A stretch of DNA of 64,000 nucleotides. Source: Martelella lutilitoris (lineage in GTDB: Bacteria > Pseudomonadota > Alphaproteobacteria > Rhizobiales > Rhizobiaceae). The position numbers were made by a program, and so were the translations under genes. Under the pieces are notes generated by a model. The model made no database searches. It was not told where the DNA came from and saw only the letters and a list, made by a program, of their open reading frames with translations. The number at the start of each line of letters is the position of its first letter. Position 1 is the first letter of the stretch. This document shows positions 35,229-58,250 of this stretch, piece after piece. The DNA lies in the NCBI RefSeq assembly GCF_016598595.1, contig NZ_CP066786.1:3495501-3559500 (forward strand), given 5' to 3'.

Positions 35229-35248
35229 GATCGGTCTCCCGGTTGAAC

Positions 35249-36097: not shown

Positions 36098-36100
36098 TGC

Positions 36101-39444: not shown

Positions 39445-40506
39445 TCAGGGACGCGTGAACCATTCGGACCAGACATATTTTGTCGCGGGTGAGGTTGTCA
39501 CCGGCGCCGCGGCTGCATGTCGCTGCCGCCGAGCCTCCCCCGGCGTCATTCCGTATTGTCGGCGAAAAGCCCTGATGAAGGCGCTTTCGGACTGGAACCC
39601 GACCGCCGTTGCGATGATGTTGATATTGGGTTGCGGCGCCAGCGGATCGGTGAGCTTGTGATAGGCTGCGGCCAGGCGCCGCTGACGCACGAAGGCAGCG
39701 ACCCCGCCATGGGGTTCGAAATGGGCATAGAGGCGGGTGCGCGAGACGCCGAACCGGGCGGCGATGTCCTCAACCGTCAGCTTGTCGCTCTCGAGGTTGT
39801 CATCGATATGCTGGCGCACGTCCTGCATCAGGCTGTGCCGCAACAGAGCCTTCTGGTCACAGGTAAGATCGCTGCCTCCATTGATAACGGCAGCGAGGAA
39901 ATGAACGAGTGCCGAAAAAACCCGGGGGCCATCCTGCGCCTGCATGGCGGGAGCCATGCGATAGACTTCCGTCACGTGCGAGCGGAACAAGCGGGCGAGC
40001 GGCATGTCGCGGCGGACGCGACGATAATGCAGCCCATCGGGATCATGCAGCAACGGAGCAAGCCGGTTGCGCGGAACCGCAAGCGCCATGAGGTCAAAGT
40101 CCTCGTTGACGGTATCAAGCGGCTCGGCATTGTCGAAAATGCAGATGTCGCCGGCGTCAAGCGTGATATCCCCGCCAGGCGCGCGGGCATGGCACCGCCC
40201 TCTTCGGAAAATCTGAACCATGTAATTGTCGATGCCGTCACGGCCGATCTGCGTGCGGCTGCGGGCGAAGGCCTGCCGAACGCTCATGCAGCGCCCCAGC
40301 GTGCCGATCCCGAGCATGAAACTGTCCACCTCAACCCGAAACGGATCACCGGCCCCCTGATCCAGAGTGGGCACGTAAAGCTGGCTCATGGCCTCCCGCC
40401 ACTGGCCGTAATCGGTGCTCGAAAAGAAATCGCGCGGGACTAAATCCTCACCTGCCGGCTTGGTTCTGGTCTCTTCTGGCAAAAGCGTCTCCCCCGGTGA
40501 CGGCAT
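39445..40506 (-). CDS. AraC-family transcriptional regulator
   Basis: The 353-aa regulator has an N-terminal cupin-like sensor (about 50-200, with HARAPGGDITLDAGDICIFD) and a C-terminal double HTH (LTVEDIAARFGVSRTRLYAH and later INIIATAVGFQSESAFIRAF). The ATG at 40506 is chosen; the longer frame to 40722 lacks domain content. It lies downstream of the sugar importer operon on the same strand, separated by 300 bp, and may regulate other genes. Confidence 0.85.
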   Translation of the reverse strand: MPSPGETLLPEETRTKPAGEDLVPRDFFSSTDYGQWREAMSQLYVPTLDQGAGDPFRVEVDSFMLGIGTLGRCMSVRQAFARSRTQIGRDGIDNYMVQIFRRGRCHARAPGGDITLDAGDICIFDNAEPLDTVNEDFDLMALAVPRNRLAPLLHDPDGLHYRRVRRDMPLARLFRSHVTEVYRMAPAMQAQDGPRVFSALVHFLAAVINGGSDLTCDQKALLRHSLMQDVRQHIDDNLESDKLTVEDIAARFGVSRTRLYAHFEPHGGVAAFVRQRRLAAAYHKLTDPLAPQPNINIIATAVGFQSESAFIRAFRRQYGMTPGEARRQRHAAAAPVTTSPATKYVWSEWFTRP

Positions 40507-40806
40507 GACTGCCGACGCATATTCCCTCTCCCCCCAATTTGAGGAAAGATAAACCCAAGTGCAAGCGGCCCCGGCGTTCGGCAGGCCGCAACCGTTTGGG
40601 AAAACGGGCGACAACCGGCTTTGCCCGCGACGTGTTCGATCCATGACGGCATGTCGATGACGGCGCATAGGCACTCGAAAGCAGTAAGCATTGGTACACT
40701 GCGGATTCCACTCCGCCATCACACCGCTTTTTCCAACGCTTTGAAAAGACCGTACCGCGCTGCAAGAGAGACCTCCCGTCAGCCAAACGCAATAGAGGCT
40801 TCGTGT
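40507..40806. other. 300-bp gap between the AraC gene and the ABC ATPase
   Basis: No coding signal, strong hairpin with T-run, or clear operator seen here. It presumably holds the AraC promoter. Confidence 0.4.
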
Positions 40807-41940
40807 TCAAGCTGAGCGAAATCCATCCACGCCGCCCAACACTTTCGGACGGTTGATCCTGGAAAACGCCGTACCTCTATCATCAAAGAGATGCAAAGCG
40901 TCCGGCTGAAAGGTAACAGGGTATGCGCCCCCGCGGCTCCAGAACGTATCACCGCTTGCTTTCACCATCAGCGACTGCCCCCCTGCCCCCTGCAACTGCA
41001 GCATGGCATGATCGCCAATATTCTCTGCAACCTCGATAGCGCAGGCAAAACCACCAGCATCGCCAGCGGGGTCGATATGTTCCGGGCGGATGCCGATCGT
41101 CACCGCGTCGCCGGTGCGCGTATCAGAAGCAGGGCGAACCGGCACGGAAACCCGGGCAAATCCGGGAACCTCCACAATAATCGCGTCGGCTTCCACGGCG
41201 GCGATGGTCCCTTCGAGAAAGTTCATCTTCGGCGAACCTATGAAGCCCGCAACGAACAGGTTTTGCGGCAAGTGATAGAGCTCCAGCGGGGTGCCCACCT
41301 GCTGCACATCGCCATGGTCAAGCACCACGATCCGGTCGGCAAGCGTCATCGCCTCGATCTGGTCGTGGGTCACATAGGCCATGGTGGTGCCAAGGTCGTC
41401 ATGCAGTTTCGACAGCTCGAGCCGCATGTGGACGCGCAGCGCCGCGTCAAGGTTCGACAGCGGTTCGTCGAACAGGAACACCTGCGGGTCGCGGACGATC
41501 GCCCGACCGATGGCGACGCGCTGGCGTTGACCGCCCGAGAGTTGACTGGGGCGCCGTTCCAGCAGATGCTCGATGTGCAGAATGCCGGCCGCCGCGCGCA
41601 CCTTGCGGTCGATTTCATCCTTCGGGCGCTTGGCGAGCTTGAGGCCGAACGACATGTTTTCGTAGACGGTTTTGTGCGGATAGAGCGCATAGGACTGAAA
41701 CACCATGGCAATGCCGCGCGCCTTGGCCGGAATATCATTGCAGCGCTTCTCCCCGATCAACAGATCGCCGCCGCTGACCTCCTCCAGCCCGGCAATCATG
41801 CGCAGCAGCGTGGATTTACCGCAGCCGGAAGGGCCGACAAAAACGATGAACTCGCCGTCGCGCACCTCAAGGTCAATGCCCTTGATGACTTCCAGCGCAC
41901 CGTAGGACTTGCTCAGATTTTTCAGGGTAAAGCCGGCCAT
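40807..41940 (-). CDS. ABC sugar importer ATP-binding protein, UgpC/MalK type
   Basis: The 377-aa ATPase has Walker A GPSGCGKST, the Q-loop MVFQSYALYPH, the signature LSGGQRQRVAIGRAI and Walker B FLFDEPLSNLD. A C-terminal TOBE/regulatory domain (about 235-377) contains GIRPEHIDP. This is the CUT1 sugar-importer type. The ATG at 41940 is chosen. It lies 29 bases after the sulfatase gene and serves the permeases at 43408 and 44240. Confidence 0.92.
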   Translation of the reverse strand: MAGFTLKNLSKSYGALEVIKGIDLEVRDGEFIVFVGPSGCGKSTLLRMIAGLEEVSGGDLLIGEKRCNDIPAKARGIAMVFQSYALYPHKTVYENMSFGLKLAKRPKDEIDRKVRAAAGILHIEHLLERRPSQLSGGQRQRVAIGRAIVRDPQVFLFDEPLSNLDAALRVHMRLELSKLHDDLGTTMAYVTHDQIEAMTLADRIVVLDHGDVQQVGTPLELYHLPQNLFVAGFIGSPKMNFLEGTIAAVEADAIIVEVPGFARVSVPVRPASDTRTGDAVTIGIRPEHIDPAGDAGGFACAIEVAENIGDHAMLQLQGAGGQSLMVKASGDTFWSRGGAYPVTFQPDALHLFDDRGTAFSRINRPKVLGGVDGFRSA

Positions 41941-41969
41941 TGGTTTCCTCCTCGGCTGTTTCGCGTCTG

Positions 41970-43397
41970 TCAGGGCCGCGCGTCGAAGACAACGCCATTG
42001 CCGGTGATGAACTGGTTTGAATAAGGGTAGAAATGCTTCTCGAAGGGCATGCGCGGGGTGGCGGCATAGCGCACGGCGAACTCCTCCGGCCTGAAAAAGG
42101 CCTCGGCCGCCGCCCGCAGATCCGCCTTCAGCGCCGCCTCTCCCGGCGCCCGGGAGAGATCGTTCCACTCGTCGGGATCATCGGCGAGGTTGTAGAGCTC
42201 CTCGCAGCCGTCCAGGTAGAGGCAGTATTTCCAGTCGCCGCGGCGCAGCATGCAACCGGCGTGGTCCGGCTGCTTCAGTACGGCGCTCTCGCAGAAAAGG
42301 TTCCGCTCCGGCGGCCCGCCCCCGGCAAGAACCGGCGCGAGGTCCAAGCCTTCCAAACCCTCGGGCGGAGAAATCCCCGCCGCGGCGCAAAGGGTCGGGT
42401 AAAGGTCTATCAGTCCGGCAAGCGCATTCGTCCGGCTCCCGGGCTCTGCCACGCCGGGCCAGCGGATAATCAGCGGAACACGGGCGGAATCCTCATAGAA
42501 GACGGTCTTCTGCCAGAGCCCCCGCCGCGCCGCCATCTCACCGTGATCGGAGGCGTAGATGACGATCGTATCCTCGAAGAGACCGAGATAGTCGATCACA
42601 TCCAGAAGCCGGCCGACGGCATCGTCGACCCATTCGACGCAACCGTAATAGGCAGCCAGCGCCCGGGCATTCACCGCATCATCGCCCCGGTGATGCGCCG
42701 TGCCGCTCGCCGCTGCCGCTTTCTGCACAAAGGCGGGCGCGCGGGTAAGCCAGTCGGGGTCATAGTCCGGCAGTTCCACCCTGCCCGCGAAACGCTCGAA
42801 GAAGCGACGCGGCGGGTTGATCGGAAAATGCGGTTTGTCGAAATGGACGGCCAGAAAGAACGGCGCATCTCCCGGTCGTCCCGCATGGCCCTGCAGCCAT
42901 TTGGCCGCCTCGCTGACGCAGATCTCCGTTTGCGTCATGGCAAGCGGAATGCCCGACGGGCCGGCATCGCCTAGAATATCGCCGAGACCGGATTCGTTTG
43001 GGTGGCGGGCGGGATCCGGCTGGTGAGCCTGGCCGTAGAGATCGCCATAGGGGCGTTCCTGAAAGCCCTGGAATTGCTCGCCGTTGAAATGCGTCTTGCC
43101 CACAAGCGCCGTGCGGTATCCGGCGTCGCCGAGCGCGCGCGCCAGCGTTGGGCCGTTGGCGGGCAGGATGTGGCGGTTGTCGTAAATGCCGGTCGTGCGG
43201 CAATATTTCCCGGTCAGAAGGCTCGCCCGGCTGGGCACGCAGAGCGGGTTCTGGCAATAGGCATTGTCGAAACGCATGCCGCCCGCGGCCAGGCGATCGA
43301 GCGACGGGGTTTCGACCGGCGTCTCCGCGCAATCGCCCATCGCACGCACGCTGTGCTGGTCGGAAAACAGGAAGAGGATATTGGGTTTCTTCTGCAT
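41970..43397 (-). CDS. Type I sulfatase (formylglycine-dependent), no signal peptide
   Basis: The 475-aa enzyme is a sulfate ester hydrolase of the alkaline-phosphatase superfamily. The activation motif C-V-P-S-R-A-S-L-L-T-G has its Cys at residue 53, which must be converted to formylglycine. Other active-site segments are NILFLFSDQHS, LVGKTHFNG and ASDHGEMAA. No signal peptide is visible, so it should act in the cytoplasm. It lies between the permease and ATPase genes of the importer (gaps of 10 and 29 bases), so desulfation follows uptake. Confidence 0.92.
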   Translation of the reverse strand: MQKKPNILFLFSDQHSVRAMGDCAETPVETPSLDRLAAGGMRFDNAYCQNPLCVPSRASLLTGKYCRTTGIYDNRHILPANGPTLARALGDAGYRTALVGKTHFNGEQFQGFQERPYGDLYGQAHQPDPARHPNESGLGDILGDAGPSGIPLAMTQTEICVSEAAKWLQGHAGRPGDAPFFLAVHFDKPHFPINPPRRFFERFAGRVELPDYDPDWLTRAPAFVQKAAAASGTAHHRGDDAVNARALAAYYGCVEWVDDAVGRLLDVIDYLGLFEDTIVIYASDHGEMAARRGLWQKTVFYEDSARVPLIIRWPGVAEPGSRTNALAGLIDLYPTLCAAAGISPPEGLEGLDLAPVLAGGGPPERNLFCESAVLKQPDHAGCMLRRGDWKYCLYLDGCEELYNLADDPDEWNDLSRAPGEAALKADLRAAAEAFFRPEEFAVRYAATPRMPFEKHFYPYSNQFITGNGVVFDARP

Positions 43398-43407
43398 GAC
43401 GTCTCCC

Positions 43408-44247
43408 TCAGGCCTTGACCGCGCCGCCGAGCCGGAGTCCGCCCTTTTGCAGCGGCTTCTGGATCAGGAAATAGACGAGCAGCGTGGGCGCCGTATATAG
43501 CAGCGCGAAGGCGGCGAGCTGGCCATACATGGCCTCCCCATATTCCCCGAAGAAACTGTAGAGCGAGACGGCCATCGGATAATTGTCGCGGCTTTGCAGC
43601 AGGATGAAGGGCACGAAGAAATTGCCCCAGTTCTCGATGAAGGACAGAATGAAGATGGTTGCGATCCCCGGCGCCAGGAGCGGCACGACGATATAGGCAA
43701 CGCCTTCCATGCGGGATGCCCCTTCCGTCCACGCCGCCTCTTCCAGATCGGTCGGAATGGCATCCATAAAGCCCTTCATCAGCCAGACCGCAAAGGGAAG
43801 CTCCGCCGCCGTGCGGAAGACGATGACGCCCGCAAGCGTATCGACGAGGCCGATATGGACGAACATCACATAGATCGGCACCATGATGGCGGTGATCGGC
43901 AGCGCGCTGGCAAAGACGATCGTGTAGATATACTGCTTTCCGTAGCGCAGCCTGTAGCGCGACAACGGATAGCCGGCGAAGAGCGCGAGGATGACCACCA
44001 GGCAGGACGTCCCGGCCGAAATGATGACGCTGTTCATGAAGGGCCGGATCGCGACATCCTCCGTCAGGATCGCGCCGAAATTCGTCAGGCTCCAGCGGGC
44101 CGGCAGTTGAATGGCAAGCGTCGCCTCGGCATCGAAGGCGGCCAGCACCATCCACACCATCGGCACGACGAAGGCGATGGCAACGAAGGTGAGCGCGATA
44201 TCGGCGGCCAGCCGGTCGCGGGTCTTGGCCTTGGCGAGATTAGCCAT
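43408..44247 (-). CDS. ABC sugar importer permease, MalG type
   Basis: The 279-aa inner-membrane permease has about six helices. The EAA-loop is EEAAWTEGASRMEGVAYIVVP, typical of CUT1 MalG-like subunits, and the C-terminus ends LQKGGLRLGGAVKA. The ATG at 44247 overlaps the previous permease stop by 8 bases, which couples their translation. Confidence 0.92.
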   Translation of the reverse strand: MANLAKAKTRDRLAADIALTFVAIAFVVPMVWMVLAAFDAEATLAIQLPARWSLTNFGAILTEDVAIRPFMNSVIISAGTSCLVVILALFAGYPLSRYRLRYGKQYIYTIVFASALPITAIMVPIYVMFVHIGLVDTLAGVIVFRTAAELPFAVWLMKGFMDAIPTDLEEAAWTEGASRMEGVAYIVVPLLAPGIATIFILSFIENWGNFFVPFILLQSRDNYPMAVSLYSFFGEYGEAMYGQLAAFALLYTAPTLLVYFLIQKPLQKGGLRLGGAVKA

Positions 44248-45148
44248 TGCGCGCTTCTCCCACTTTGAACAGACGGACATAGATGAGGGAGGCGATGACG
44301 CCGAAGCCGAGCAGCAGGACGGCGATTGACGAGCCGTAGCCGATAAGGCCGAAATCATAGGCCTGATTGTACATCAGGAGCGGCAGCGTTTCCGAGCGCG
44401 TGCCGGGCCCGCCCGCCGTGGTGATCCAGATGATACCGAACACGCCGAGCGTGTTGAGCGTGGTCAGCACTACATTGATGGCAATCACCGGGCGGATGAT
44501 CGGCAGGATGACGCCGAAGATCGATTGCATGCGCCCTGCCCCGTCGATCTCGGCGGCTTCAAGCACTTCGCTCGAGACATCCTGAAGCGCCGCGGAGTAG
44601 ACGAGCATCGAGAAGGCACAGCCGCGCCAGATGTTGATGATGATCACCGCGGCAAGCGGCGCCGTCAGAAGCCATTGCTGGTGGGCAAAGCCGAAAATAT
44701 CGAAAATCTGGTTCATGCCGGATTCGTCGCCGCGCAGGAATGTGTACCAGAGAAAGCCCGCAACGACTTCCGGCACCACCCAGGCGGTGATGACGATGAC
44801 CGAGGCAAGGCTCTGGATGGCGGGCGTCGCCATTTGCCGCACATAGGCAATGCAGAAGCCGACAATGTTCTGCCCGGCAACGGAGAGGCCGACGAACACC
44901 GCCGTCCGCCCGAGCGCCGCCCAGGTGCGCGGATCGGTGAACAGGTAGTAGTAGTTCTCGAAGCCGATGAAGGCCGGATTGCGGGCCGCATAGCCCGACA
45001 GTCCGAGATTGGTCATGGATGTGTAGATGGCCCAGATGATCGGCACCAGAAAGAAGGCGACGATCATCAGGGTGGCCGGGGCAAGCGGCACAATGCGCAT
45101 CAGCACTGCTGCCGGCCCTTGGCTCGTTCCGCTTGCCCCTTGCGCCAT
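44240..45148 (-). CDS. ABC sugar importer permease, MalF type
   Basis: The 302-aa inner-membrane permease has the N-terminal helix LAPATLMIVAFFLVPIIWAI and an EAA-loop LEAAEIDGAGRMQSIFGVILP. The start at 45148 lies 1 base after the binding-protein stop. It forms the channel with the MalG-type subunit. Confidence 0.92.
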   Translation of the reverse strand: MAQGASGTSQGPAAVLMRIVPLAPATLMIVAFFLVPIIWAIYTSMTNLGLSGYAARNPAFIGFENYYYLFTDPRTWAALGRTAVFVGLSVAGQNIVGFCIAYVRQMATPAIQSLASVIVITAWVVPEVVAGFLWYTFLRGDESGMNQIFDIFGFAHQQWLLTAPLAAVIIINIWRGCAFSMLVYSAALQDVSSEVLEAAEIDGAGRMQSIFGVILPIIRPVIAINVVLTTLNTLGVFGIIWITTAGGPGTRSETLPLLMYNQAYDFGLIGYGSSIAVLLLGFGVIASLIYVRLFKVGEARNG

Positions 45149-45149
45149 G

Positions 45150-46499
45150 TCAGTTCGCTTTTTCGACGTTCGACGAGCCGGCAAGGCGGGTGAGCTGGCG
45201 GTCGAAGCGGCCGGCGGCGTCTTCGACGCTGTCTCCGCCCACCGTCACGGCCTCCATCGTCTCCTGGATGAGGGAGGAGACCTGCGGATAGATTTCCAGC
45301 GCCGGGCGGAAATTGGTCACCTCAACCAGCGAGGAGAAGAAACCGGCGGTCGGATTGGTTTCGAGATAGGTCTCGTCCGCGATGACGTCCTTGCGCACGC
45401 CGATCGATCCGGCGCGAATGGCATAGGTCAGGCTGTTTTCGAAATTGGCGACCGTGGTCATGAAATCGAAGGCGAGATTCTTGTCCTCGGTCTTCGGGCT
45501 CATGGCGATGGTCCAGCCGCCGGACATGGAGGTGAAGCCGTTGCCCTGGCCATTCTGCGTCGGAATCTTGGCCATGCCGAGCGTCTCGTTCCACGCCGCC
45601 CAGGGCGCGGTGCCGCCCTCGATCCAGCGCGCCCAGATCCAGTTGCCGTCGATGAACATGGCAACCTTGCCCTCGGGCACGCGCTGTTCGACCAGAACGT
45701 TCTGGAAGCTCGAATCCTGAAGATCGGTATCGGACACGAGATAGCCGTTGTCATAGGCGGTCTTCAGAAAGGCCAGCGCATCGCGGAAGCCCTTCGAGCC
45801 GACGACCCATTTCTGCGTTTCCGGATCGAAAAGCGTTGCCGAAAGCCCGCCCGGCGTGCCGGAGATCAGGTTCATGAGACCCCGCATCGTGCTCGCCTCG
45901 TTGCCGGCCTTCGTCACATAGATATTGATCGGATCGACGCCGGGGAGGTTTTCCTTCACCTTGGCCGCGGCATCGAGAATGTCCTGCCAGGTCTTCGGCT
46001 GCCAGTCAGCCCCCACTCCGGCCTTTTCGAGAAGGTCCTTGTTGTACCAGATGGCCTGGGTGTCGGTGCCGAGCGGAATGCCGTAAACCTTGCCGTCGAC
46101 GAAAGACTTGCCGTTCTGGACCGCGATCTGGGAGAACTGATCCCACTCGTCCCATCCGGAGAGCCGCTCGTCCAGCGGCTCGAGATAGCCCGCGGCGGCA
46201 TCCGCGGTAATCTGGAAACCATCCTCATAGATGATGTCTGGCGCCGTCGATGCCGACTGGTTCATCAGCGAAACCTTGGTGTAGTAGTCGCGCGCCGACG
46301 AACTGATCGCGTTGAGCTCGATCGTGTCGCCGGGGTGTTCGGCTTCGAATTCGGCCTTGGCCGCCTCCATGACCGCCGACACATAGGGCGATTCGCGATA
46401 GACAACGGACAATTCCTCCGCCTGCGCCAGGGCAGGTAGACCACAGGCAAAGCCAGCGGCCAGCAGCGTTGACAGCTTCAATTGAGCACGCAAGTTCAT
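45150..46499 (-). CDS. ABC sugar importer substrate-binding protein
   Basis: The 449-aa periplasmic protein of SBP family 1 (MalE/UgpB-like) has a signal peptide at 1-27 (ends PALAQAEE). Motifs include PDIIYEDGFQITADAAAGYL and GIPLGTDTQAIWYNKDLLEK, plus the GKVAMFIDGNWIWARWIEGG pocket region. It is the first gene of the minus-strand operon with two permeases, sulfatase and ATPase. A LacI-type operator lies just upstream. Substrate probably a sulfated oligosaccharide or glycoside (inference). Confidence 0.92.
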   Translation of the reverse strand: MNLRAQLKLSTLLAAGFACGLPALAQAEELSVVYRESPYVSAVMEAAKAEFEAEHPGDTIELNAISSSARDYYTKVSLMNQSASTAPDIIYEDGFQITADAAAGYLEPLDERLSGWDEWDQFSQIAVQNGKSFVDGKVYGIPLGTDTQAIWYNKDLLEKAGVGADWQPKTWQDILDAAAKVKENLPGVDPINIYVTKAGNEASTMRGLMNLISGTPGGLSATLFDPETQKWVVGSKGFRDALAFLKTAYDNGYLVSDTDLQDSSFQNVLVEQRVPEGKVAMFIDGNWIWARWIEGGTAPWAAWNETLGMAKIPTQNGQGNGFTSMSGGWTIAMSPKTEDKNLAFDFMTTVANFENSLTYAIRAGSIGVRKDVIADETYLETNPTAGFFSSLVEVTNFRPALEIYPQVSSLIQETMEAVTVGGDSVEDAAGRFDRQLTRLAGSSNVEKAN

Positions 46500-46521
46500 A
46501 TTGTTTCCTCCCTAAAAGACC

Positions 46522-46535
46522 TGCAAACGATATCA
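46522..46535. promoter_or_regulatory. LacI-type operator upstream of the sugar importer
   Basis: TGCAAACGATATCA matches 11-12 of 14 positions of the LacI-family half-palindrome pattern TGNAANCGNTTNCA, with the central CG. It lies 23 bp before the binding-protein start. Together with the second site at 46673-46686 it brackets the divergent promoters of the sugar locus. Confidence 0.5.
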
Positions 46536-46672
46536 CATATTTTTCGCTGGTCAACAAAGCCTCTCACCAAATTTCACGCTCTATCCGCAAATTCCGCCTT
46601 AAAACTAGCCTTTTATGGGACTTCTCTTTGACGTATTGACTAAATTTGAGGCGCGTGCCAATGATGTGGACA

Positions 46673-46686
46673 TGCAATCGTTACCA
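46673..46686. promoter_or_regulatory. LacI-type operator upstream of the ROK gene
   Basis: TGCAATCGTTACCA has the same layout as the site at 46522 (TGCAANCGNTNNCA) and lies 11 bp before the ROK start. Both probably bind the LacI-family protein encoded at 51669, which ends this gene cluster. Confidence 0.5.
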
Positions 46687-46696
46687 GATAAGTGAT

Positions 46697-47683
46697 ATGG
46701 CAGAACAAAGAGACACTATGACGCCCGTCGTCCTGGCGGTGGATATCGGGGCCACCAAGATCGCCGTCGGCCTCGTGCATGCCGATGGCGCAATCGCCTT
46801 TCAGTCTCGCGAGCGCTCGCCGGTCAGGGCGGCGCCGAGCCTGGCGCTGATCGAGCGGCTCGGCAGGGCAGCCGAGGCCCACGCCAGAAGGAACGGGCTC
46901 GCCATAGAGGGAACGGGCATCGCCTGCGGCGGACCGCTCGACCTCGAAAAAGGCTTGGTCCTGTCCCCGCCCAACCTGCCGGACTGGGATCGCATACCGC
47001 TGACAGAGCAGATGGAAACCAGCTTCGGCGCGAAGGCCTATCTGCAGAATGACGCGGCGGCGGGCGCAATCGCCACGGCGCTCTGGGACAATCCCGACGC
47101 GGTGAGGGACGTGACCTATATCACCGTGTCTTCGGGGATTGGCTGCGGCGTCATCACCGATGGCTTTCTTTATACCGGCCACACCGGCAACGGGTCGGAG
47201 CTCGGCCACATCCCGCTGATTTACGATGGCCGCACCTGTAACTGCGGCCTGACGGGGTGTTTTGAAGCCTATGTCTCGGGAACATCGATCGGCAAGCGCT
47301 ATACCGAGGCCAAAGCCAAGGGCATGGCGACGCCGAGGCCCTATTCCGCGCGCAATGTCGCCGATGCGGCGCTTGCCGGCGACGAGGAGGCCCTTGCCTT
47401 CTGGCAGAGTTCGATGGGCATGCTTGCCCGTGCGGTGCGCGCGGCGGCCGATCTGTTCGATCCCGCCCTGCTGGTGATCGGCGGCGGCGTGACCGAGGCC
47501 GATGGAGAGCTCTTCGCGCCCGCGATGGCGCTCGTCGGCAGCAGCATGGCCGCCAGCGTCGGTCAACGACTGACGGTGCGCAAAACGGGCTTCGGCCGCA
47601 ATTCGGGCGTCGCCTCGGCGGCCGCCGTCGCATGGAACGAAATCGGCAGCGCCACGGGCGTCAAGGTGAGGATCAGAGAATGA
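46697..47683 (+). CDS. ROK-family sugar kinase
   Basis: The 328-aa protein is a ROK kinase. The phosphate-binding DIGAT motif is at 16-20, the catalytic Asp is in QNDAAAG (Asp119), and the zinc site is formed by His171 and Cys181, Cys183 and Cys188 (TCNCGLTGCFE). ROK kinases act on glucose, GlcNAc, ManNAc, fructose, mannose or allose; the sequence does not tell which. It overlaps the SIS gene by 4 bases (ATGA), so they are coupled. Confidence 0.88.
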   Translation: MAEQRDTMTPVVLAVDIGATKIAVGLVHADGAIAFQSRERSPVRAAPSLALIERLGRAAEAHARRNGLAIEGTGIACGGPLDLEKGLVLSPPNLPDWDRIPLTEQMETSFGAKAYLQNDAAAGAIATALWDNPDAVRDVTYITVSSGIGCGVITDGFLYTGHTGNGSELGHIPLIYDGRTCNCGLTGCFEAYVSGTSIGKRYTEAKAKGMATPRPYSARNVADAALAGDEEALAFWQSSMGMLARAVRAAADLFDPALLVIGGGVTEADGELFAPAMALVGSSMAASVGQRLTVRKTGFGRNSGVASAAAVAWNEIGSATGVKVRIRE

Positions 47684-48258
47684 CGGCAAGCCTGGAAGAG
47701 GAGATGGCGGCCCATTTTGCCATGGACGCGGAAATGCGGACTCGCCTTCCCGATATCATCGCCATCGCTGACGCGATCTGGCAGAGCGTCTGTGCGGGCG
47801 GCTGCGTCTATGTGTTCGGCAATGGCGGTTCGGCCGCGGAAGCGTTGCATTTCAGCGGCGAGCTGATCGGCCGCTACAAAACCAACCGGCGCCCCCTGCC
47901 CGCGACCTGCCTCTCCGCCGACGTTTCGGCGCTCACCTGTATCGGCAACGACTTCTCCTTCGATGCCGTTTTCGCCCGCCAGGTCACGGCCCTTGCCGGA
48001 CCGCGGGATATCGTCATTGCCTTTTCCACCAGTGGCCGGTCGGAAAACATCCGTTCAGGACTTGCCGCCGCCTGGGCAAAAGGGGCCAAAACCGTTCTCT
48101 TCACCGGCCAGAACGGTGCCGAAATCGCGAAGGATTGCAGCCTCGCCTTCATTTCACCCCACACGATGACCGCCCGCATTCAGGAAATGCACCAGCTTGC
48201 CATGCACCTGATCTGCGCCCGTCTGGAAACACTCGTCGCGGAGAGCGAAAATGTCTGA
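47680..48258 (+). CDS. SIS-domain phosphosugar isomerase, GmhA-like
   Basis: The 192-aa protein is a single SIS domain in the GmhA/DiaA mould. It has VFGNGGSAAEALHFSGELIG near residue 50 and FSTSGRSENIRSGL near 125. GmhA isomerises sedoheptulose-7-phosphate; in this catabolic setting another ketose/aldose phosphate pair is more likely. It overlaps the GH38 gene by 8 bases and the ROK gene by 4, so all three are one translation unit. Confidence 0.85.
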   Translation: MTASLEEEMAAHFAMDAEMRTRLPDIIAIADAIWQSVCAGGCVYVFGNGGSAAEALHFSGELIGRYKTNRRPLPATCLSADVSALTCIGNDFSFDAVFARQVTALAGPRDIVIAFSTSGRSENIRSGLAAAWAKGAKTVLFTGQNGAEIAKDCSLAFISPHTMTARIQEMHQLAMHLICARLETLVAESENV

Positions 48259-50749
48259 GCAGAAATCGCGTTTTGCCGCCATTCACATGGTCGGCCATGC
48301 CCATCTCGATCCCGTCTGGCTGTGGCGCTGGACAGAAGGCTATCAGGAGGCCCGCGCGACGCTGACAGCAGCCGTCGCGCTTCTTGAGGAATTCGAGGAC
48401 TACGTCTTCACCTTCGAACAGGTCGCGGTCGTGGAGTGGATCCGCGAGAGCGACCCCAAGCTTTTCTCCCGGCTTCGCGACCTCGTCGTTTCCGGGCGCA
48501 TCGCCATGGTCGGCGGCTGGTGGGTCGAACCGGACTGCAATCTGCCGAATCTCGAATCCTTCGTGCGCCAGGGTCTGATCGGCCAGCGCTATCTGCTTGA
48601 GCATTTCGGGGGCATCGCCAATGTCGGCCTCAATGCCGACCCCTTCGGCCACTCCGCGGCCCTGCCACAGGTGCTTGCCGGCCACCGGATCGCCTCTTAC
48701 TGCTTCCTGCGCCCCGGCCCGCACGAAATCGACATGCCGCACACGCTGTTTGAATGGCAAGGGCTGGGCGGCGCCTCGGTTGCCGCCTACCGGATCCCGC
48801 ATGAATACTGCACGACGGCGGAAAACGTCGACCGGCATATGGAATCCGCCATCAGCAAGATCGGCGCAGCGCTTGAGGACGAGGCCATGGTCTTCTATGG
48901 CGTCGGCAATCATGGCGGCGGCCCGACCCGGCGAAACCTGAAGAGCATCGAGGCGCTTGATGCAGACGGCCGGTTCGGCAGATTGATCATGTCCGGCCCC
49001 GACCGCTTTTTCGAGGAGCGCCGGAACAGCGGCAAGCCCATGCCGGTTCACGAGGGCGAGCTGCAGCGCCACGCCGCCGGGTGCTACGCGGCCTTTGCGA
49101 AGATCAAGCAGATGAATCTGAAGGCAGAAACAGCCCTTCTGGAGGCGGAGCGCTATGCCACGCTTTCCGCAGCCACACAGGGAGTCTCCTACCCCAGCGA
49201 AAAACTCGACGAGGCATGGAAGACGCTGCTCTTCAACCAGTTCCACGACATCCTGCCCGGAAGCTCGATCCTTCCCGCCTGCGAAGACGCGGTCCATGCC
49301 CTTGGCGGCGTGATCGCGACGGCGGACAGAGTCACCAACCGCGCCCTGCAGATCGCGGCCCGCGACGTCGCCATACCGGCAGACGAGGAAACACAGCCGC
49401 TCATCGTCTTCAACCCGCATCCGTTCGAAGCCGAGATCACCGCGGAACTGGAACTATCCTTCCTGCCGGGCAACTGGATTGTCAGCGCCGAGGATGGCGA
49501 GGAAACGCCCTGGCAGAAGATCAGGGCCGATGCCACCATCCGCGAGGAAGACATCTTCCGCGACCGCTATCGCGCCCGCATTGCCTTCCCCGCCAGGGTG
49601 CCGGCCTTTGGCCACAAGCTCTATCGCGTGCGCAGGACCGATGCGCCGCAAGCCATACCGCAGTTCCAGGCACGCGCTCACGGCACCACCATCGAAAACG
49701 CGCATCTGCGGGTGACGATCAACCCGCAGACCGGCTGGCTTGACGAATTCGTCACTCTTGCCGACGGGCAGGATCTTGCCCCTGCCAAAGGCGCCATCCA
49801 TACCGTCGTATCGGCCGATGGTTCCGACACCTGGGGCCACCGGGTGGAGACCTATGTGGGCCAGGGCCGCCAGTTCGAAGTCGAGAGCATCCACATCGAG
49901 GATGCCGGCCCCGTTCGCGCCTCGATCCGGGTCAATGCCCGCCTCGGACGATCGCGCCTGAGCGAGCTCTTCGTGCTCGACAGCAATGCCCGCTCGCTCG
50001 AAATCCGCACCGAAATCGACTGGCATGAAGAACTGCACCTTCTGAAGCTGCGCTACCCGACGGCTGTTTCGGCCGATACGGCCCGCTACCAGATGCAATA
50101 TGGCTATGTGGAGCGGCCCGCGGACGGTCTCGAATATCCCGGCCAGCGCTGGGTCAGCGTCGCCGGCGCGGATGGGAAGCGGATAAGCGTGATCAACAAT
50201 GCCAAATACGCCTATGACTGCGTCGACGGCGATATCGGCATCACCGCCGCGAGAAGCCCTGTCTTTGCCTGGCATGATCCCCGCGAGCTGCGTGACAACG
50301 AGCATTATAACTACCAGGATCAGGGCCTGCAGCGCTTCAGCGTCCGGCTCCTGCCCCAGACGGGCGATGATATGGACGAGGCGAGCCGGCTCGCCGAGAT
50401 GATGGTCATGCCGCCCCGGGTGATGATGGAAAGCTTCCATCCCGGAGACATGCCCGCGACGCGCGGGCTGATTTCCGGCCTTGAGGAAACGCCCGGCCTG
50501 CGGCTGACGGCGCTGAAACCCTGGGAAGATGATCCCTCGACGACCGTGATGCGCTTCGTCAACGACACGTCCGGCCCGATCGCGGCCCGGCTTGGGCTTG
50601 ACTTTGCCGGCGGCCATCTGCTTTCGCTCGCCCTCGAACCTTTCGAAATCCGTACGCTGGCCGTCACGCGCTCCGGCGAGATCATCACCCTCGATCTTCT
50701 CGAATTCGAACCCGACCGCAAACTTCACCTCCTGTCCGAAGGGATCTGA
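48251..50749 (+). CDS. Alpha-mannosidase, glycoside hydrolase family 38
   Basis: The 832-aa enzyme has an N-terminal catalytic domain with zinc ligands in GHAHLDPVW (His18, Asp20) and the predicted nucleophile Asp130 in LNADPFGHS. The middle and C-terminal beta domains of GH38 follow. No signal peptide is present, so it acts in the cytoplasm. Bacterial GH38 enzymes cleave alpha-mannosides, including mannosyl-glycerate in the phosphorylated form. The context with a cytoplasmic sulfatase suggests a sulfated mannose-containing substrate. Confidence 0.92.
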   Translation: MSEQKSRFAAIHMVGHAHLDPVWLWRWTEGYQEARATLTAAVALLEEFEDYVFTFEQVAVVEWIRESDPKLFSRLRDLVVSGRIAMVGGWWVEPDCNLPNLESFVRQGLIGQRYLLEHFGGIANVGLNADPFGHSAALPQVLAGHRIASYCFLRPGPHEIDMPHTLFEWQGLGGASVAAYRIPHEYCTTAENVDRHMESAISKIGAALEDEAMVFYGVGNHGGGPTRRNLKSIEALDADGRFGRLIMSGPDRFFEERRNSGKPMPVHEGELQRHAAGCYAAFAKIKQMNLKAETALLEAERYATLSAATQGVSYPSEKLDEAWKTLLFNQFHDILPGSSILPACEDAVHALGGVIATADRVTNRALQIAARDVAIPADEETQPLIVFNPHPFEAEITAELELSFLPGNWIVSAEDGEETPWQKIRADATIREEDIFRDRYRARIAFPARVPAFGHKLYRVRRTDAPQAIPQFQARAHGTTIENAHLRVTINPQTGWLDEFVTLADGQDLAPAKGAIHTVVSADGSDTWGHRVETYVGQGRQFEVESIHIEDAGPVRASIRVNARLGRSRLSELFVLDSNARSLEIRTEIDWHEELHLLKLRYPTAVSADTARYQMQYGYVERPADGLEYPGQRWVSVAGADGKRISVINNAKYAYDCVDGDIGITAARSPVFAWHDPRELRDNEHYNYQDQGLQRFSVRLLPQTGDDMDEASRLAEMMVMPPRVMMESFHPGDMPATRGLISGLEETPGLRLTALKPWEDDPSTTVMRFVNDTSGPIAARLGLDFAGGHLLSLALEPFEIRTLAVTRSGEIITLDLLEFEPDRKLHLLSEGI

Positions 50750-50751
50750 CC

Positions 50752-51639
50752 ATGGCCCGCCAACCCGAAATCTGGCCGCCTCTCCTCACCCCGTTTCTCG
50801 AAAACGGGGAGATTGATTTTGATGCCATTCAGGGCCTCGTCGATTTCTATGTCGCGCGCGGCGTTTCCGGCCTGCTGGTCACCGGACTTTCTGCCGAACC
50901 GCTCACGATGAACGATGCCGAGCGCGCCGCGGTTATCAGGGCCGCTGTCCGCGCGGTTGCGGGAAGGGTTCCCGTCGCCGCCTCGGTGTTTTGCAAGGAA
51001 GGCGAAGGCTGGCCTGAGGCAATTGCGCGCGTAAGGGCGATCGGCGGCGTCGATTGCGCCGTGCTTTTGACCGGACATCTGGTCGCGGAGGGCGAAAGCG
51101 ACGAGGCTTTTCTCGCATGCCTTGAGGCAATCATCGCAGATAGCAGCGGCGATCTCGGTCTCTACGAGGCGCCCCGCCCCTACAAGCGGCTGATCTCGGA
51201 CAGGGCTCTTGCCTGTGCGGCTGAGAGCGGACGCTTCATCTTTTTGAAGGATACATGCTGCGATCTTGCGCGAATCAAGAGCCGGATCGAGATTGTCGGC
51301 GGCAGCCGGCTGAAGCTTATGAACGCCGAGGTGGCAACATTTCGGGCCTCGTTCAAGGCCGGTGCGGACGGATTCTGCGGTCTCATGGCCAATGTGTTTC
51401 CGGACATGCTTGAGCGGGCGGCGACCGAGGAGACCGATGCGCTCTCACTGCTGCTGACTGCCGGAGATATGGCCCTGGAGCAGAGCTATCCCGGATCTGC
51501 CAAGGCACTGCTCAGCGAAAATTATGGGGTCGGCCTGACCAGTTTCTCACGCGTTTTGGGGCGGCTGACGACGCGCAGCGACTGCACCGGTCTTTTCGCT
51601 CTTGATGAATACTTCAACAGATACCAGAAAACGCGCTAA
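50752..51639 (+). CDS. DHDPS/NAL-family lyase or aldolase
   Basis: The 295-aa TIM-barrel protein belongs to the dihydrodipicolinate synthase / N-acetylneuraminate lyase family. The Schiff-base Lys166 (FIFLKDTCC) and Tyr138 (LGLYEAP) are present. The usual GTTGE loop reads TGLSAEP here (about 44-50), which is unlike true DapA. It follows the GH38 gene by 2 bases and probably handles a 2-keto acid from the sugar pathway; lyase and aldolase roles are both possible. Confidence 0.85.
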   Translation: MARQPEIWPPLLTPFLENGEIDFDAIQGLVDFYVARGVSGLLVTGLSAEPLTMNDAERAAVIRAAVRAVAGRVPVAASVFCKEGEGWPEAIARVRAIGGVDCAVLLTGHLVAEGESDEAFLACLEAIIADSSGDLGLYEAPRPYKRLISDRALACAAESGRFIFLKDTCCDLARIKSRIEIVGGSRLKLMNAEVATFRASFKAGADGFCGLMANVFPDMLERAATEETDALSLLLTAGDMALEQSYPGSAKALLSENYGVGLTSFSRVLGRLTTRSDCTGLFALDEYFNRYQKTR

Positions 51640-51668
51640 AAGAGCATTTTTGATGAGGCACGTACTCC

Positions 51669-52691
51669 ATGGCAGATAAGCGCGTCACGATCGGCGATAT
51701 CGCGGAGGCGGTCGGTCTTTCGACCTCGACCGTCTCGCGCGCGCTCAGCGGCAAAGGCTATGTCGCGGCAGACGTCAAGGCGCGCATCGTCGCGGCGGCG
51801 CAGAAGATCGGCTATGTGCCCGACCTCAATGCCCGCAATCTCAGGCAGGGCTCCAGCACACAGATCGGCCTCGTGGTCTCGAGCATTCTGGACCCTTTCT
51901 ATGCCGAACTTGCAACCGGTTTTCAGGAGGTTGCGCGAGCAGAGGGCTATGAGGTCATCCTGATCATCGATCGCGCCGATCCGAAGGAGCAGAAGGCGGC
52001 AGTGAAATCGCTGATCGCCATGGGTGTTTCGGCAATCGCGATCACGCCGGTCTCGGCCGAAGCGGTGGCGAGCGTGCGCGATTTCGGCCGACCGGTCCTG
52101 CAGATCGACCGCTCCGTCAGCGACGACAACGCCCTTGTCGCAGGCGACAACCGGGCCGGCGGCAAGATGGCGACCGAACATCTGATCGGCTTCGGCCATG
52201 AACGGATCGCACTCCTCATCGATCACGACGAGTGGACGACGGGGCGCGCGCGCATCGAGGGCTGGCGCGAAGCCTTCACGGAGCGCGGACTTGCCGTGCC
52301 GGACGACCTCATCTTCAAGCTCGGCTCCTCGGATGTAGAGATTACCGCCGGGCTCGACCGTTTTGTTGGCGCGCTGAAATCAAGGTCGATCACCGCGATC
52401 TTCTCGGCTAACAGCGTCGTCTCGCAACGCCTTTACGTGGCGCTTGGCAAGCACGGAGTGCGCGTTCCAGAAGATGTCTCGGTGGTGGCCTATGACGATG
52501 CGCTCTGGATGACGATGGTGACCCCGACCATCAGCGCCGTCAGCCAGCATGTCGAAGAAATGGGCCGTCATGCTGCGGAATTGCTCATCCGACAGATCGG
52601 CGCGGGCCGCAAGGGCCCTTGGCCCGTTCGTACCTTTGTTCAACCGAGCCTGATAGCGCGCTCCAGCGTGCTCGCTCTGCATAGCGGGTGA
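51669..52691 (+). CDS. LacI-family transcriptional repressor
   Basis: The 340-aa regulator has an N-terminal LacI HTH (TIGDIAEAVGLSTSTVSRAL) and a hinge with NLRQGSSTQIGLV. The C-terminal domain is a periplasmic-binding-like sugar domain. It is the last gene of the plus-strand half of the sugar locus. It likely represses both halves through the operators at 46522 and 46673. Confidence 0.92.
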   Translation: MADKRVTIGDIAEAVGLSTSTVSRALSGKGYVAADVKARIVAAAQKIGYVPDLNARNLRQGSSTQIGLVVSSILDPFYAELATGFQEVARAEGYEVILIIDRADPKEQKAAVKSLIAMGVSAIAITPVSAEAVASVRDFGRPVLQIDRSVSDDNALVAGDNRAGGKMATEHLIGFGHERIALLIDHDEWTTGRARIEGWREAFTERGLAVPDDLIFKLGSSDVEITAGLDRFVGALKSRSITAIFSANSVVSQRLYVALGKHGVRVPEDVSVVAYDDALWMTMVTPTISAVSQHVEEMGRHAAELLIRQIGAGRKGPWPVRTFVQPSLIARSSVLALHSG

Positions 52692-52775: not shown

Positions 52776-53582
52776 TCAGTCGTGCCAACCAAGGCGCTGG
52801 GAGATCACACGCGCCTGATAGACGACGATCTTGGCCAGATCCGGGATTTCGTTTTCGGGAATCTGCCAGGCCGGGCCGTTGACGCTGATGCCGGCGAATA
52901 CGCGGCCGTTCTGATCGTGGATCGGAGCGCCGAGACATCGCAGTCCTGGCTGATGCTCCTCATTGTCCACGGCATAGCCCTTCTCGCGAATTTCGGCCAG
53001 AGCCCTTCGCAGATCATCGGGATCGGTCATTGTCTGGTCGGTGTAGCGTGACAGGCCCGCCGCAATCACACGCTCGACGGCGTCTTCCGTCTGAAATGCG
53101 AGGATCGCCTTGCCGATGCTCGTGCAATGCACCGGCGCGTTCTCGATCATGCCCGCTTTGGTATGGCTTTCGTTTCCGGTCCCCACACGATGGATGACAA
53201 CGGCCTGCATTCCATCGAAAACAGCCAGATGAACGGTCTGGCCGGTCATGTGCTGAAGAGATTCCATCATCGGCCGGGCTTCTCGGCGCACATCGAGATT
53301 GGCGAGCACGATATCGCCGAACTCGAACAGACGGAGCCCCAGGCGATAGCTGTCACGTTCCCTGTCCTGATCCAGAAACCCGACCTCCCGCATGGAAGCC
53401 ACAAGCCGGTGCGTCGTGCTCTTCGGAAACCCAGTCCGCTGGCATATCGTCGCAAGCGACAATGCACGGTCGTTGACCGAAAAGCACTCCAGGATGCGCA
53501 CCACCTTCGACAGCGACTTCAACCCCTCGTCGCCTCTGCTTTTCCCCCGTGCTGTCTGATCGTCTTTCATGATTACCCCCAA
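52776..53582 (-). CDS. IclR-family transcriptional regulator
   Basis: The 268-aa protein has an N-terminal winged HTH (about 22-80, with LATICQRTGFPKSTTHRLVAS) and a C-terminal IclR effector domain with GMQAVVIHRVGTGN and CTSIGKAILAF. It is divergent from the tripartite tricarboxylate transporter. Three CGGAAC-like boxes lie in the 410-bp gap between them and are the probable binding sites. Confidence 0.92.
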   Translation of the reverse strand: MGVIMKDDQTARGKSRGDEGLKSLSKVVRILECFSVNDRALSLATICQRTGFPKSTTHRLVASMREVGFLDQDRERDSYRLGLRLFEFGDIVLANLDVRREARPMMESLQHMTGQTVHLAVFDGMQAVVIHRVGTGNESHTKAGMIENAPVHCTSIGKAILAFQTEDAVERVIAAGLSRYTDQTMTDPDDLRRALAEIREKGYAVDNEEHQPGLRCLGAPIHDQNGRVFAGISVNGPAWQIPENEIPDLAKIVVYQARVISQRLGWHD

Positions 53583-53993
53583 AAGCGCTCCCTGAATCCG
53601 CTTGCCATAATAAGGGATTCAATCCTGCTATACGGAACATCTAAATCGTTTCAGACTCAAGATAGATTCAGAAACGAAGAAATTGAGAGACACCATAACC
53701 GATCTTCCTCACGCCGTAAATCCCACTATTCGGAACGTGATTCTTTTTTTTGGGATTTAAGTTGACAGACTTAGTCTCTGGTGAGAGCATTATTTCGCGG
53801 TACAGCGTTCCATTATGCGGTATTGCTAAAGGGAGGTTTGATCTGACGTTCAACGCCATTGCGATGTGGCGGGACCGTTTCCGAGTGGACGGGCGTCGGC
53901 GTCGCTGCCCGCGTCTAACAAAAGGGGATTCTGGACCGCAGGGCCTCGTCGGCTCTTTTCGTAACCCAAAGGGAAGATTGGGAGGAGAATTCA
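53583..53993. other. Regulatory gap between the IclR gene and tctC
   Basis: This 410-bp gap has three CGGAAC-like boxes (listed separately), a TTGACA at 53762-53767, and AT-rich blocks. The tctC ribosome binding site GGGAGGAG lies 4-12 bases before its ATG. No ORF with coding character is seen. Confidence 0.5.
53629..53817. promoter_or_regulatory. Three CGGAAC-type boxes, candidate IclR operators
   Basis: TATACGGAACAT (53629-53640), TATTCGGAACGT (53727-53738) and, on the other strand, CATAATGGAACGC (53805-53817) share the core TAnnCGGAAC or TAATGGAAC. IclR-type regulators bind motifs of this kind near their own gene. The first box lies 47 bp upstream of the IclR start and the last two are near the tctC side, so both directions may be controlled. 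Assignment is inference. Confidence 0.45.
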
Positions 53994-54956
53994 ATGAATA
54001 TTCTGAAGACGCTTCTGGCGACGACCGTGGTCGTCGTCGGCGGTATTTCGGCAGCGTGCGCCGAATACCCGGAACGGCCGATCACGCTGATCGTGCCCTG
54101 GGGCGCAGGCGGCGGAACGGATGCCACCGGACGGATCCTGGCAACGCTGATGGAAGAAGAGCTGGGCCAGCCGATCAATGTCGTCAACCGCACCGGCGGC
54201 GGCAGCGTCATCGGCCACAAGGCAATCGCCGACGCCGATCCCGACGGTTACACGCTGGGCATTATCACCACGGAACTGTCGATGTTCCATTGGCTCGGCA
54301 CATCCGAACTGACCTACAAGGATTTCACGCCGCTCGGCCTTTATAACGCCGACCCGTCCGCCGTGGTCGTCAGAACGGACGGCCCGTTCGACAGCATGGA
54401 CGCGCTTACCGCCGCGATCGAGGAAAATGCCGCGGCGATCCGGGCCGGCGGCGCCAATCAGGGCGGAGTCAATCATCTGGCCTATGTCACGCTGGTGAAC
54501 GAGCTTGACGGCGACAGGGCATTCTGGGTGCCGACCGAAGGCGCCGCTCCTGCCCTGCAATTGCTGGCATCCGGAGCGATCGATGTCGGCGTCGTCCAGC
54601 TTCCCGAGGCTCAGGGATTGATCGATGCCGGCGAACTCAAGGCGCTGTCGATCCTCGGCACCGAGCGCGATCCGGCACATCCGGACCTGCCGACCATCAA
54701 GGAAAGCACCGGTATCGACTTTCCGATCAATGGCTGGCGAGGCCTCGGCGGGCCAAGCGACCTCCCCGACAACGTCAGCGCGACGCTGATTGAGGTCATG
54801 GCCGATGTCGTCAGCAGCCCCGCATTCGCCGACCTGATGGCCAAGCGCTCCTACGGCGTCGTGTGGGAAGGCGGCGACGCCTTCGTCGACTACCTCGCCC
54901 AGCGTGACGAGGCCTTCGGCAAGGCCATGAACGCCGCCGGTCTCGTCAAGGACTGA
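53994..54956 (+). CDS. tctC: Tripartite tricarboxylate transporter substrate-binding protein TctC
   Basis: The 320-aa periplasmic protein of the Bug/TctC family has a signal peptide at 1-23 (ends AACAEYP). The conserved N-terminal ERPITLIVPWGAGGGTD segment and VNRTGGGSVIGHKAIADADP confirm the family. It feeds TctB/TctA. Substrates of the family are carboxylates; which one cannot be read here. A large stem-loop follows its stop. Confidence 0.9.
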   Translation: MNILKTLLATTVVVVGGISAACAEYPERPITLIVPWGAGGGTDATGRILATLMEEELGQPINVVNRTGGGSVIGHKAIADADPDGYTLGIITTELSMFHWLGTSELTYKDFTPLGLYNADPSAVVVRTDGPFDSMDALTAAIEENAAAIRAGGANQGGVNHLAYVTLVNELDGDRAFWVPTEGAAPALQLLASGAIDVGVVQLPEAQGLIDAGELKALSILGTERDPAHPDLPTIKESTGIDFPINGWRGLGGPSDLPDNVSATLIEVMADVVSSPAFADLMAKRSYGVVWEGGDAFVDYLAQRDEAFGKAMNAAGLVKD

Positions 54957-54972
54957 CGGACCGGACCGCGCC

Positions 54973-55043
54973 GCCGAAGGCACTCCATTCAACATCTGAA
55001 ACTCGGTTCTTTTCGGCCGTATCCCGGCCGGAGTGCCTTCGGC
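54973..55043 (+). other. Perfect 14-bp inverted repeat between tctC and tctB
   Basis: GCCGAAGGCACTCC (54973-54986) and GGAGTGCCTTCGGC (55030-55043) are perfectly complementary, with a 43-nt loop and no T-run after. It starts 16 bases after the tctC stop. Such a stem can stabilise the binding-protein mRNA and lower read-through into the membrane subunits, giving an excess of TctC. Confidence 0.6.
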
Positions 55044-55079
55044 CGTCTGCTCGCGACACCAACGGAAAGGAGTGAGGCC

Positions 55080-55583: not shown

Positions 55584-55595
55584 GGAGAAACGGCC

Positions 55596-57125: not shown

Positions 57126-57235
57126 GGCGCGAGGAACCGGCAGCACGAAAAGAAAGGAGATGACGGAAAAGCAATACCGACGACACCCCCGTACCGGGAC
57201 AACCATCGTTTGGAAAACTCCAGAAAGAGACTGAA

Positions 57236-58156: not shown

Positions 58157-58169
58157 CGCAACCACCGGG

Positions 58170-58193
58170 AGAGGACGCTGGCGGGCGTCCTCT
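58170..58193 (+). terminator. Hairpin between the two DHDPS-family genes
   Basis: AGAGGACGC (58170-58178) and GCGTCCTCT (58185-58193) form a perfect 9-bp stem with a 6-nt loop, 14 bases after the first stop. No T-run follows, so it may act as an attenuator or mRNA-stabilising element rather than a full terminator. Confidence 0.4.
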
Positions 58194-58250
58194 TCTGGAG
58201 CCCCGAACCGATTTGACACAGCCAGCTGCAAGGCCACAGGACAACAGATA

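Follow-up and report, generated by a model that had tools for sequence, protein, structure and literature searches.

A putative cassette for intact import and cytoplasmic desulfation of a sulfated alpha-mannoside in Martelella lutilitoris

INTRODUCTION

What would a sulfatase and an alpha-mannosidase, both lacking an export leader, accomplish together behind an ATP-binding cassette (ABC) importer? The question is raised by a locus at positions 40807 to 52691 of a 64,000-nucleotide stretch of DNA (hereafter, the window) from the 4.79-Mb genome of the marine bacterium Martelella lutilitoris (RefSeq assembly GCF_016598595.1, contig NZ_CP066786.1, forward-strand positions 3,495,501 to 3,559,500). 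A preliminary description, prepared from the letters of the window, viewed the locus as an eight-gene set for the uptake of an intact sulfated mannoside, followed by its desulfation, hydrolysis, phosphorylation, isomerization, and aldol cleavage inside the cell. The named genes are all present at their positions and on their strands, and the families agree with our assignments by Pfam and NCBIfam, but there are ten genes rather than eight, arranged in two divergent, tightly packed groups. We favor reading these genes, at a probability of roughly 0.6, as a LacI-controlled cassette for a small sulfated alpha-mannoside or manno-oligosaccharide, which would be imported intact and then desulfated and hydrolyzed in the cytoplasm, with its mannose passing to fructose-6-phosphate.

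RESULTS

Conservation of the ten genes as a unit

From 46499 downwards, the minus strand encodes a CUT1 binding protein, two permeases, a sulfatase, and a MalK/UgpC-type ATPase; from 46697, the plus strand encodes a ROK kinase, an SIS isomerase, a GH38 mannosidase, a DHDPS-family enzyme, and a LacI regulator (Table 1). Because neighboring genes on each side overlap by a few bases or are separated by at most about 30 bases, we read each side as one operon, and the first coding bases of the two operons are 197 bases apart. Several starts were revised in the process (MalK, 41940; permeases, 45148 and 44247; SIS, 47680; and ROK, 46697 or 46718 instead of a TTG at 46646). The importer has the composition of a CUT1 system, with a family 1 binding protein, two permeases, and a MalK/UgpC ATPase bearing a TOBE domain.

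All ten genes retain their order and orientation in each of the seven relatives compared at full length, namely, five Martelella loci (L009, L010, L011, L139, and L140), one from a Devosiaceae-type genome (L096), and one from a Maritimibacter metagenome-assembled genome (L012), the latter two with cassette proteins at 54 to 80% identity. The sulfatase occurs in 6 of 13 Martelella genomes, the same six that possess a GH38 ortholog (94 to 100% identity), and both are absent from the other seven, of which five have only GH38 paralogs at 31 to 34% and two have no match at an E value of ≤1e-40. Such a pattern would arise by chance in 1 of 1716 cases if the two genes were independent, although congeneric species are not independent of each other and the two genes are close neighbors. 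The single conserved set of the preliminary description is borne out both by gene order and by this joint presence and absence, and the check that it proposed, a search for the same set in other genomes, is passed.

At an E value of ≤1e-80, the only genome with the sulfatase among 385 of the class, and again among 398 of the phylum, was the query genome itself; likewise, the genome used as the center was the only one among 121 in the family of G056, the source of L096, and among 292 in the order of Maritimibacter. A search of 397 genomes of the order with GH38 (E value of ≤1e-100) gave 7 with a match, the query genome and G056 above 60% identity and five others at 37 to 39%. Among these five, L097 combines GH38, ROK, and SIS with a CUT1 binding protein and permeases but lacks a sulfatase of this group. 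In protein databases, the sulfatase, GH38, and DHDPS proteins nearest to those of the cassette are on equal-sized longest contigs in three further cases (12694, 15332, and 124771), as are the sulfatase and DHDPS proteins only in a fourth (19223), which by size match alone suggests further copies of the cassette. In Psychromarinibacter and Granulosicoccus, one replicon carries both GH38 and DHDPS, although not necessarily side by side, and no sulfatase on contigs of those sizes appears among the best 120 of 446 sulfatase relatives.

The preliminary description also called for trees of the two enzymes. In these, each built from 121 proteins, the clade that unites the window protein with its closest relatives has a support of 1.0 for the sulfatase (8 relatives) and 0.98 for GH38 (9 relatives); the inner branching of the two clades is not identical. 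Among seven members, Spearman correlations of pairwise identities are 0.84 for sulfatase-GH38, 0.56 for sulfatase-DHDPS, and 0.63 for GH38-DHDPS; Pearson values are higher but hang on one close Martelella pair.

A pair of operator-like sites between the operons

The region from 46500 to 46717 contains two copies of a 16-base, CG-centered site, TGCAAACGATATCACA and TGCAATCGTTACCAGA, identified by comparing lineages, and two sites occur likewise in the spacers of L012 (TGCAATCGTTACCACA and TGGAAACGTTGTCACA) and L096 (TGCAATCGTTATCACA and TGAAATCGTTGTCATA). Throughout the genome, the combined pattern matches at the two window places only, and a reversed control has 0 matches; this pattern matches the window sites by construction, and the crossed tests are the fair ones. 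When the pattern is derived from L012 and L096 only, each of the two window sites is recovered at one mismatch, and 0 of 100 shuffles contain two sites. With the window sites as the query, neither distant spacer yields two equally good sites in any of 2000 shuffles, and the best site alone is equaled in 0 of 2000 shuffles for L012 and in 2 of 2000 for L096, where the second hit is the second site read on the minus strand with a shift. A scan for perfect palindromes returned nothing in seven of eight spacers.

A CG-centered site is typical of LacI-family operators, and the cassette combines a LacI gene with conserved sites of this form before both operons, as in a LacI-type local regulon. That the pair is kept across lineages and is rare in shuffles argues for one regulator of the two operons, for which the cassette's own LacI protein, acting through these predicted operators, would be the simplest candidate. 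The reading of the locus as one regulon thereby gains evidence.

Leaderless sulfatase and mannosidase

By simple hydropathy, as opposed to a signal-peptide program, the sulfatase and GH38 both lack a hydrophobic leader, as had been described, and one is evident in the binding protein. The sulfatase starts with MQKKPNILF and reaches its catalytic core within a few residues; an alternative start that would add a leader was rejected, since the frame continues upstream for no more than 22 residues, a hydrophilic stretch. Of its relatives (the best 120 of 446), 105 show the pattern of the first core strand, which starts within the first 16 residues in 103 and later in 2, and 15 were unmatched. In GH38, the HAHLD motif is already reached at residue 16.

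Six residues of the sulfatase (Q14, C53, N74, K101, H190, and K297), invariant in 45 of 45 aligned members, are the catalytic Gln, Cys, Asn, Lys, His, and Lys of choline sulfatase, and the C-x-P-S-R motif is kept, as in S1 enzymes; the host encodes one protein with an FGE-sulfatase domain (236 bits), that is, a formylglycine-generating enzyme. The protein belongs to an uncharacterized S1 group, whose wider membership (53 to 61% identity among the matches listed) is named in Bacillota, Treponema, Planctomycetota, and others. Its best NCBIfam and structural match is choline sulfatase, an identity that we rejected: the score against TIGR03417 is 265 bits, with a cutoff of 433, and the choline-binding Glu386 is not conserved, aligning with Gln376 beside a gap and in a column without consensus. 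In fold comparisons, which cover the listed subfamilies only and yield neither S1 subfamily nor substrate, choline sulfatase and several carbohydrate sulfatases rank above phosphonate hydrolases, with some rows within one Z unit.

Among plasmid-borne relatives of the sulfatase (at best 39% identity; three looked at), that of Paracoccus is next to a tripartite transporter and that of Halomontanus next to GH97 and further sulfatases, and the third, from Burkholderia stagnalis, carries no annotation. No relative was found in viral contigs; among phages, five records contain relatives at 28 to 31%.

GH38 contains three GH38 domains, an HxHxD motif, the catalytic Asp block, and an FHD block, and it is Ams1-like, aligning across the HAHLD, DPFGHS, and FHDILPGS blocks, whose residues presumably have the roles usual for the family. 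A second GH38 gene (G000:C1:2149666-2150412), with a 1114-codon open frame and 33% identity to the cassette enzyme, is present in the genome outside the window.

Isomerase and DHDPS-family enzyme

The SIS protein scores 156 bits against GmhA (TIGR00441; cutoff, 209), and the region of its H57, E61, Q168, and H171 aligns with 2xbl, giving the H..xE and Q..H signature of what we take to be the active site. The alternative of a NagS-type N-acetylglucosamine-6-phosphate dehydratase was rejected: the SIS protein matches GmhA, and NagS, in the available part of the source, is grouped with MurQ and occurs in Streptomycetaceae only (PMC12680351).

In the DHDPS-family protein, the Schiff-base Lys166 and the catalytic Tyr138 are invariant in 36 of 36 sequences, as in class I aldolases of the DHDPS/N-acetylneuraminate lyase type. 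The aldol cleavage that the preliminary description placed within mannose breakdown does not hold as such, even though both residues are kept. Fructose-6-phosphate is formed from mannose-6-phosphate without an enzyme of this kind, and a role on the remainder of the glycoside or on a side product is therefore more likely. Its plasmid relatives (at best 39% identity; five looked at) named no substrate, being adjacent to other sugar kinases, a sialidase-like gene, or GH78. On a Martelella plasmid (L146, 8001 to 11085) and a Klebsiella plasmid (L147, 4695 to 12596), relatives at 38 to 39% lie beside a sialidase-like gene, in the latter case with an FGGY kinase and a LacI gene between insertion sequence elements, in what looks like an undescribed sugar cluster.

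A ROK-SIS-GH38 module in Actinobacteria

The best 80 of 173 GH38 relatives were scanned; by title, 76 are actinobacterial, and 62 of these have enough upstream sequence. ROK and SIS directly precede GH38, in the order seen here, in 47 of the 62 loci, and a DHDPS gene was detected in none of them. It follows that ROK-SIS-GH38 is a common unit to which the sulfatase of this cassette and its DHDPS gene are an addition. A sulfatase (33 to 36% identity) lies near the module in 3 of the 62 loci, too few to be relied upon as support. In two Microbacterium loci (L053, 6809; L060, 6874), another sulfatase (34 to 36%) is encoded between the LacI gene and ROK-SIS-GH38, which may reflect an independent association of such an enzyme with the module.

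Features and flanking genes of the window

Table 1. Genes and predicted regulatory sites of the cassette, in window coordinates (pLDDT, predicted local distance difference test; HTH, helix-turn-helix)
Feature	Positions	Strand	Evidence
ABC ATPase, UgpC/MalK type	40807..41940	-	ABC_tran, OB_MalK, TOBE_2; NCBIfam UgpC 466 bits, cutoff 432
Formylglycine-type S1 sulfatase, leaderless, CVPSR motif with Cys53	41970..43397	-	Pfam Sulfatase 175 bits; model pLDDT 91.7
ABC permease, MalG/GlcU type	43408..44247	-	BPD_transp_1; start 44247
ABC permease, MalF/GlcT type	44240..45148	-	BPD_transp_1; start 45148
CUT1 solute-binding protein with leader	45150..46499	-	Pfam SBP_bac_1, SBP_bac_8; hydrophobic N terminus
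Operator-like site TGCAAACGATATCACA, near binding-protein gene	46522..46537	+	Cross-lineage comparison
Operator-like site TGCAATCGTTACCAGA, near ROK gene	46673..46688	+	Cross-lineage comparison
ROK-family sugar kinase	46697..47683	+	Pfam ROK 191 bits; ELGH and CNCG motifs
SIS isomerase, GmhA-like	47680..48258	+	SIS_2; 181 residues aligned to phosphoheptose isomerase 2xbl
GH38 alpha-mannosidase, leaderless	48251..50749	+	Three GH38 Pfam domains; Ams1-like
DHDPS-family class I lyase/aldolase	50752..51639	+	PF00701; Lys166 and Tyr138; model pLDDT 96.5
LacI-family regulator	51669..52691	+	LacI HTH and Peripla_BP_3

On the minus-strand side, positions 34476 to 38293 encode a sulfate/thiosulfate ABC importer, whose binding protein, CysT, and CysW score above NCBIfam cutoffs and whose short CysA-like ATPase scores below, and an AraC-type regulator gene (39445 to 40722) separates it from the cassette. 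We rejected this importer as a part of the cassette on the grounds that, in L009, L010, and L011, a LacI-like gene occupies that side (the comparison covers the cassette flank only). Beyond the LacI gene, positions 52776 to 59141 encode an IclR regulator, a TctCBA tripartite transporter, and two further DHDPS-family proteins (57236 to 58156 and 58251 to 59141), probably a separate catabolic cluster.

DISCUSSION

The gene content of the cassette, its conservation and co-occurrence, the leaderless sulfatase and GH38, their catalytic residues, the formylglycine-generating enzyme, and the site pair, all evident from sequence, are consistent with the following route, whose order of steps we infer. 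The CUT1 importer would take up the glycoside intact, and the sulfatase would remove the sulfate, whatever its position, in the cytoplasm, where GH38 would release mannose. ROK may then form mannose-6-phosphate and the GmhA-like SIS protein convert it to fructose-6-phosphate, and the DHDPS-family enzyme would process a remaining (keto-acid) part or a side product. Phosphoheptose isomerase acts on a substrate with the manno configuration of mannose, and we count the resemblance of the SIS protein to that enzyme in favor of mannose-6-phosphate isomerization. Until an inducer binds, the LacI protein would repress both operons through the two predicted operators in the shared promoter region.

Several points weigh against this route. 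A DHDPS-family enzyme has no place in plain mannose breakdown, and its gene implies a part of the substrate beyond mannose; the sulfatase, with a wider group that spans several phyla, could act on another ester; and the specificities of S1 and GH38 enzymes are not predictable from family alone. Moreover, the SIS, ROK, GH38, sulfatase, and DHDPS proteins all score under the NCBIfam cutoffs of their nearest characterized families, and the annotated stretches of the window contain no obvious secreted enzyme.

The imported molecule might instead be phosphorylated (e.g., phosphomannosyl), with the sulfatase-family enzyme serving as a phosphate mono- or diesterase or a phosphonate hydrolase. This we regard as improbable given the ranking of folds, narrow as it is in some rows, a PehA score of 142 bits against an NCBIfam cutoff of 900, and the retention of all six residues named for choline sulfatase in the available part of its description (PMC5870055). 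Choline sulfatase being the closest match, and a sulfate/thiosulfate importer being next door, the sulfatase could also serve sulfur scavenging or hydrolyze an unrelated ester, such as choline-O-sulfate, and belong to a plain mannoside operon solely for the sake of joint regulation. We give this little credence, in that the score and the aligned Gln376 depart from choline sulfatases, a LacI-like gene stands on the side of the sulfate importer in three of five Martelella relatives, and the sulfatase gene lies between those of the permease and the ATPase in all seven relatives.

A substrate of the lipopolysaccharide (LPS) core type, manno-heptose or mannose linked to 3-deoxy-D-manno-octulosonic acid (Kdo), would accommodate two features: an SIS protein closest to phosphoheptose isomerases, which would form sedoheptulose-7-phosphate from a heptose phosphorylated by ROK, and a DHDPS gene, present in every full cassette compared, whose product has N-acetylneuraminate lyase, which cleaves a related keto acid, among its nearest solved folds and would cleave Kdo once GH38 had cut the heptoside or mannosyl-Kdo. 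A sulfatase, however, is not expected for LPS core, none of the 62 actinobacterial loci has a detectable DHDPS gene, and Actinobacteria of those loci have no LPS, such that we find this explanation unlikely as well. A bolder form of the sulfated-mannoside reading, speculative and still doubtful, has mannose and a Kdo-like 2-keto-3-deoxy acid joined in a small sulfated glycoside that is imported whole. The sulfatase would then found a new S1 specificity, the GmhA-like protein would be a new kind of mannose-6-phosphate isomerase, the DHDPS-family enzyme would cleave the freed keto acid, and the cassette would form a complete route that imports a marine glycan fragment first and desulfates it inside, of a kind that we did not find described in the open-access literature.

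Marine carbon includes a large pool of sulfated sugars, and an import-first, desulfate-inside cassette would be a scavenger strategy for marine Alphaproteobacteria. Returning to the favored reading, a cassette for a sulfated alpha-mannoside would give a first function to a broad, uncharacterized group of S1 sulfatases. It would also point to isomerization of mannose-6-phosphate by a GmhA-type enzyme in a module often seen in Actinobacteria.

The preliminary description knew of no characterized locus with this set of genes, and our searches of the open-access literature (subscription papers and preprints being outside their scope) likewise found none with this combination; its parts do have recognizable counterparts. 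The actinobacterial LacI-ROK-SIS-GH38 loci have ROK, SIS, and GH38 arranged as they are here, in many cases along with a LacI gene, but contain no detected DHDPS gene, no sulfatase of this group, and other importer genes. Mannosylglycerate hydrolase MngB is also a GH38 enzyme, yet the protein here is nearer Ams1 by sequence and scores 112 bits against PRK09819 (cutoff, 1138). The phosphoheptose isomerase GmhA has the SIS fold and active-site blocks in common with the SIS protein, which falls below its cutoff and is encoded in a catabolic operon. The choline sulfatase BetC of Sinorhizobium meliloti (6fny), in the available part of its description, resembles the sulfatase in fold and catalytic residues at about 30% identity, differing in its choline-binding Glu and in the family score (PMC5870055).

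Two pathways are closer in function, each considered here from the available portion of its source. The N-glycan system of Streptococcus pneumoniae, comprising the NgtS-P1-P2 importer, GH38, GH125, GH92, and ROK (PMC5215778), similarly combines CUT1-type import of a mannose oligosaccharide with GH38 and a ROK kinase, but its importer and glycosidase genes are in separate loci and the string "sulfat-" is absent from that text, whereas here a single cassette includes a sulfatase, an SIS isomerase, a DHDPS-family enzyme, and its own LacI regulator. Polaribacter degrades a C6-sulfated alpha-1,3-mannan of diatoms with S1_51, GH195, GH92, and S1_11, its mannosidase freeing mannose-6-sulfate before the last sulfatase acts (PMC13063451), and the sulfated alpha-mannose compound, desulfation, and mannose release of that pathway parallel those proposed here. 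Its sulfatases and mannosidases, encoded in a 23-gene polysaccharide utilization locus, are outside the cell or periplasmic, and that text mentions neither GH38 nor an ABC transporter; the Martelella enzymes, by contrast, are leaderless and stand behind an ABC importer, for which the mannose sulfate or small oligosaccharides from a Polaribacter-type route would be a natural scavenger substrate.

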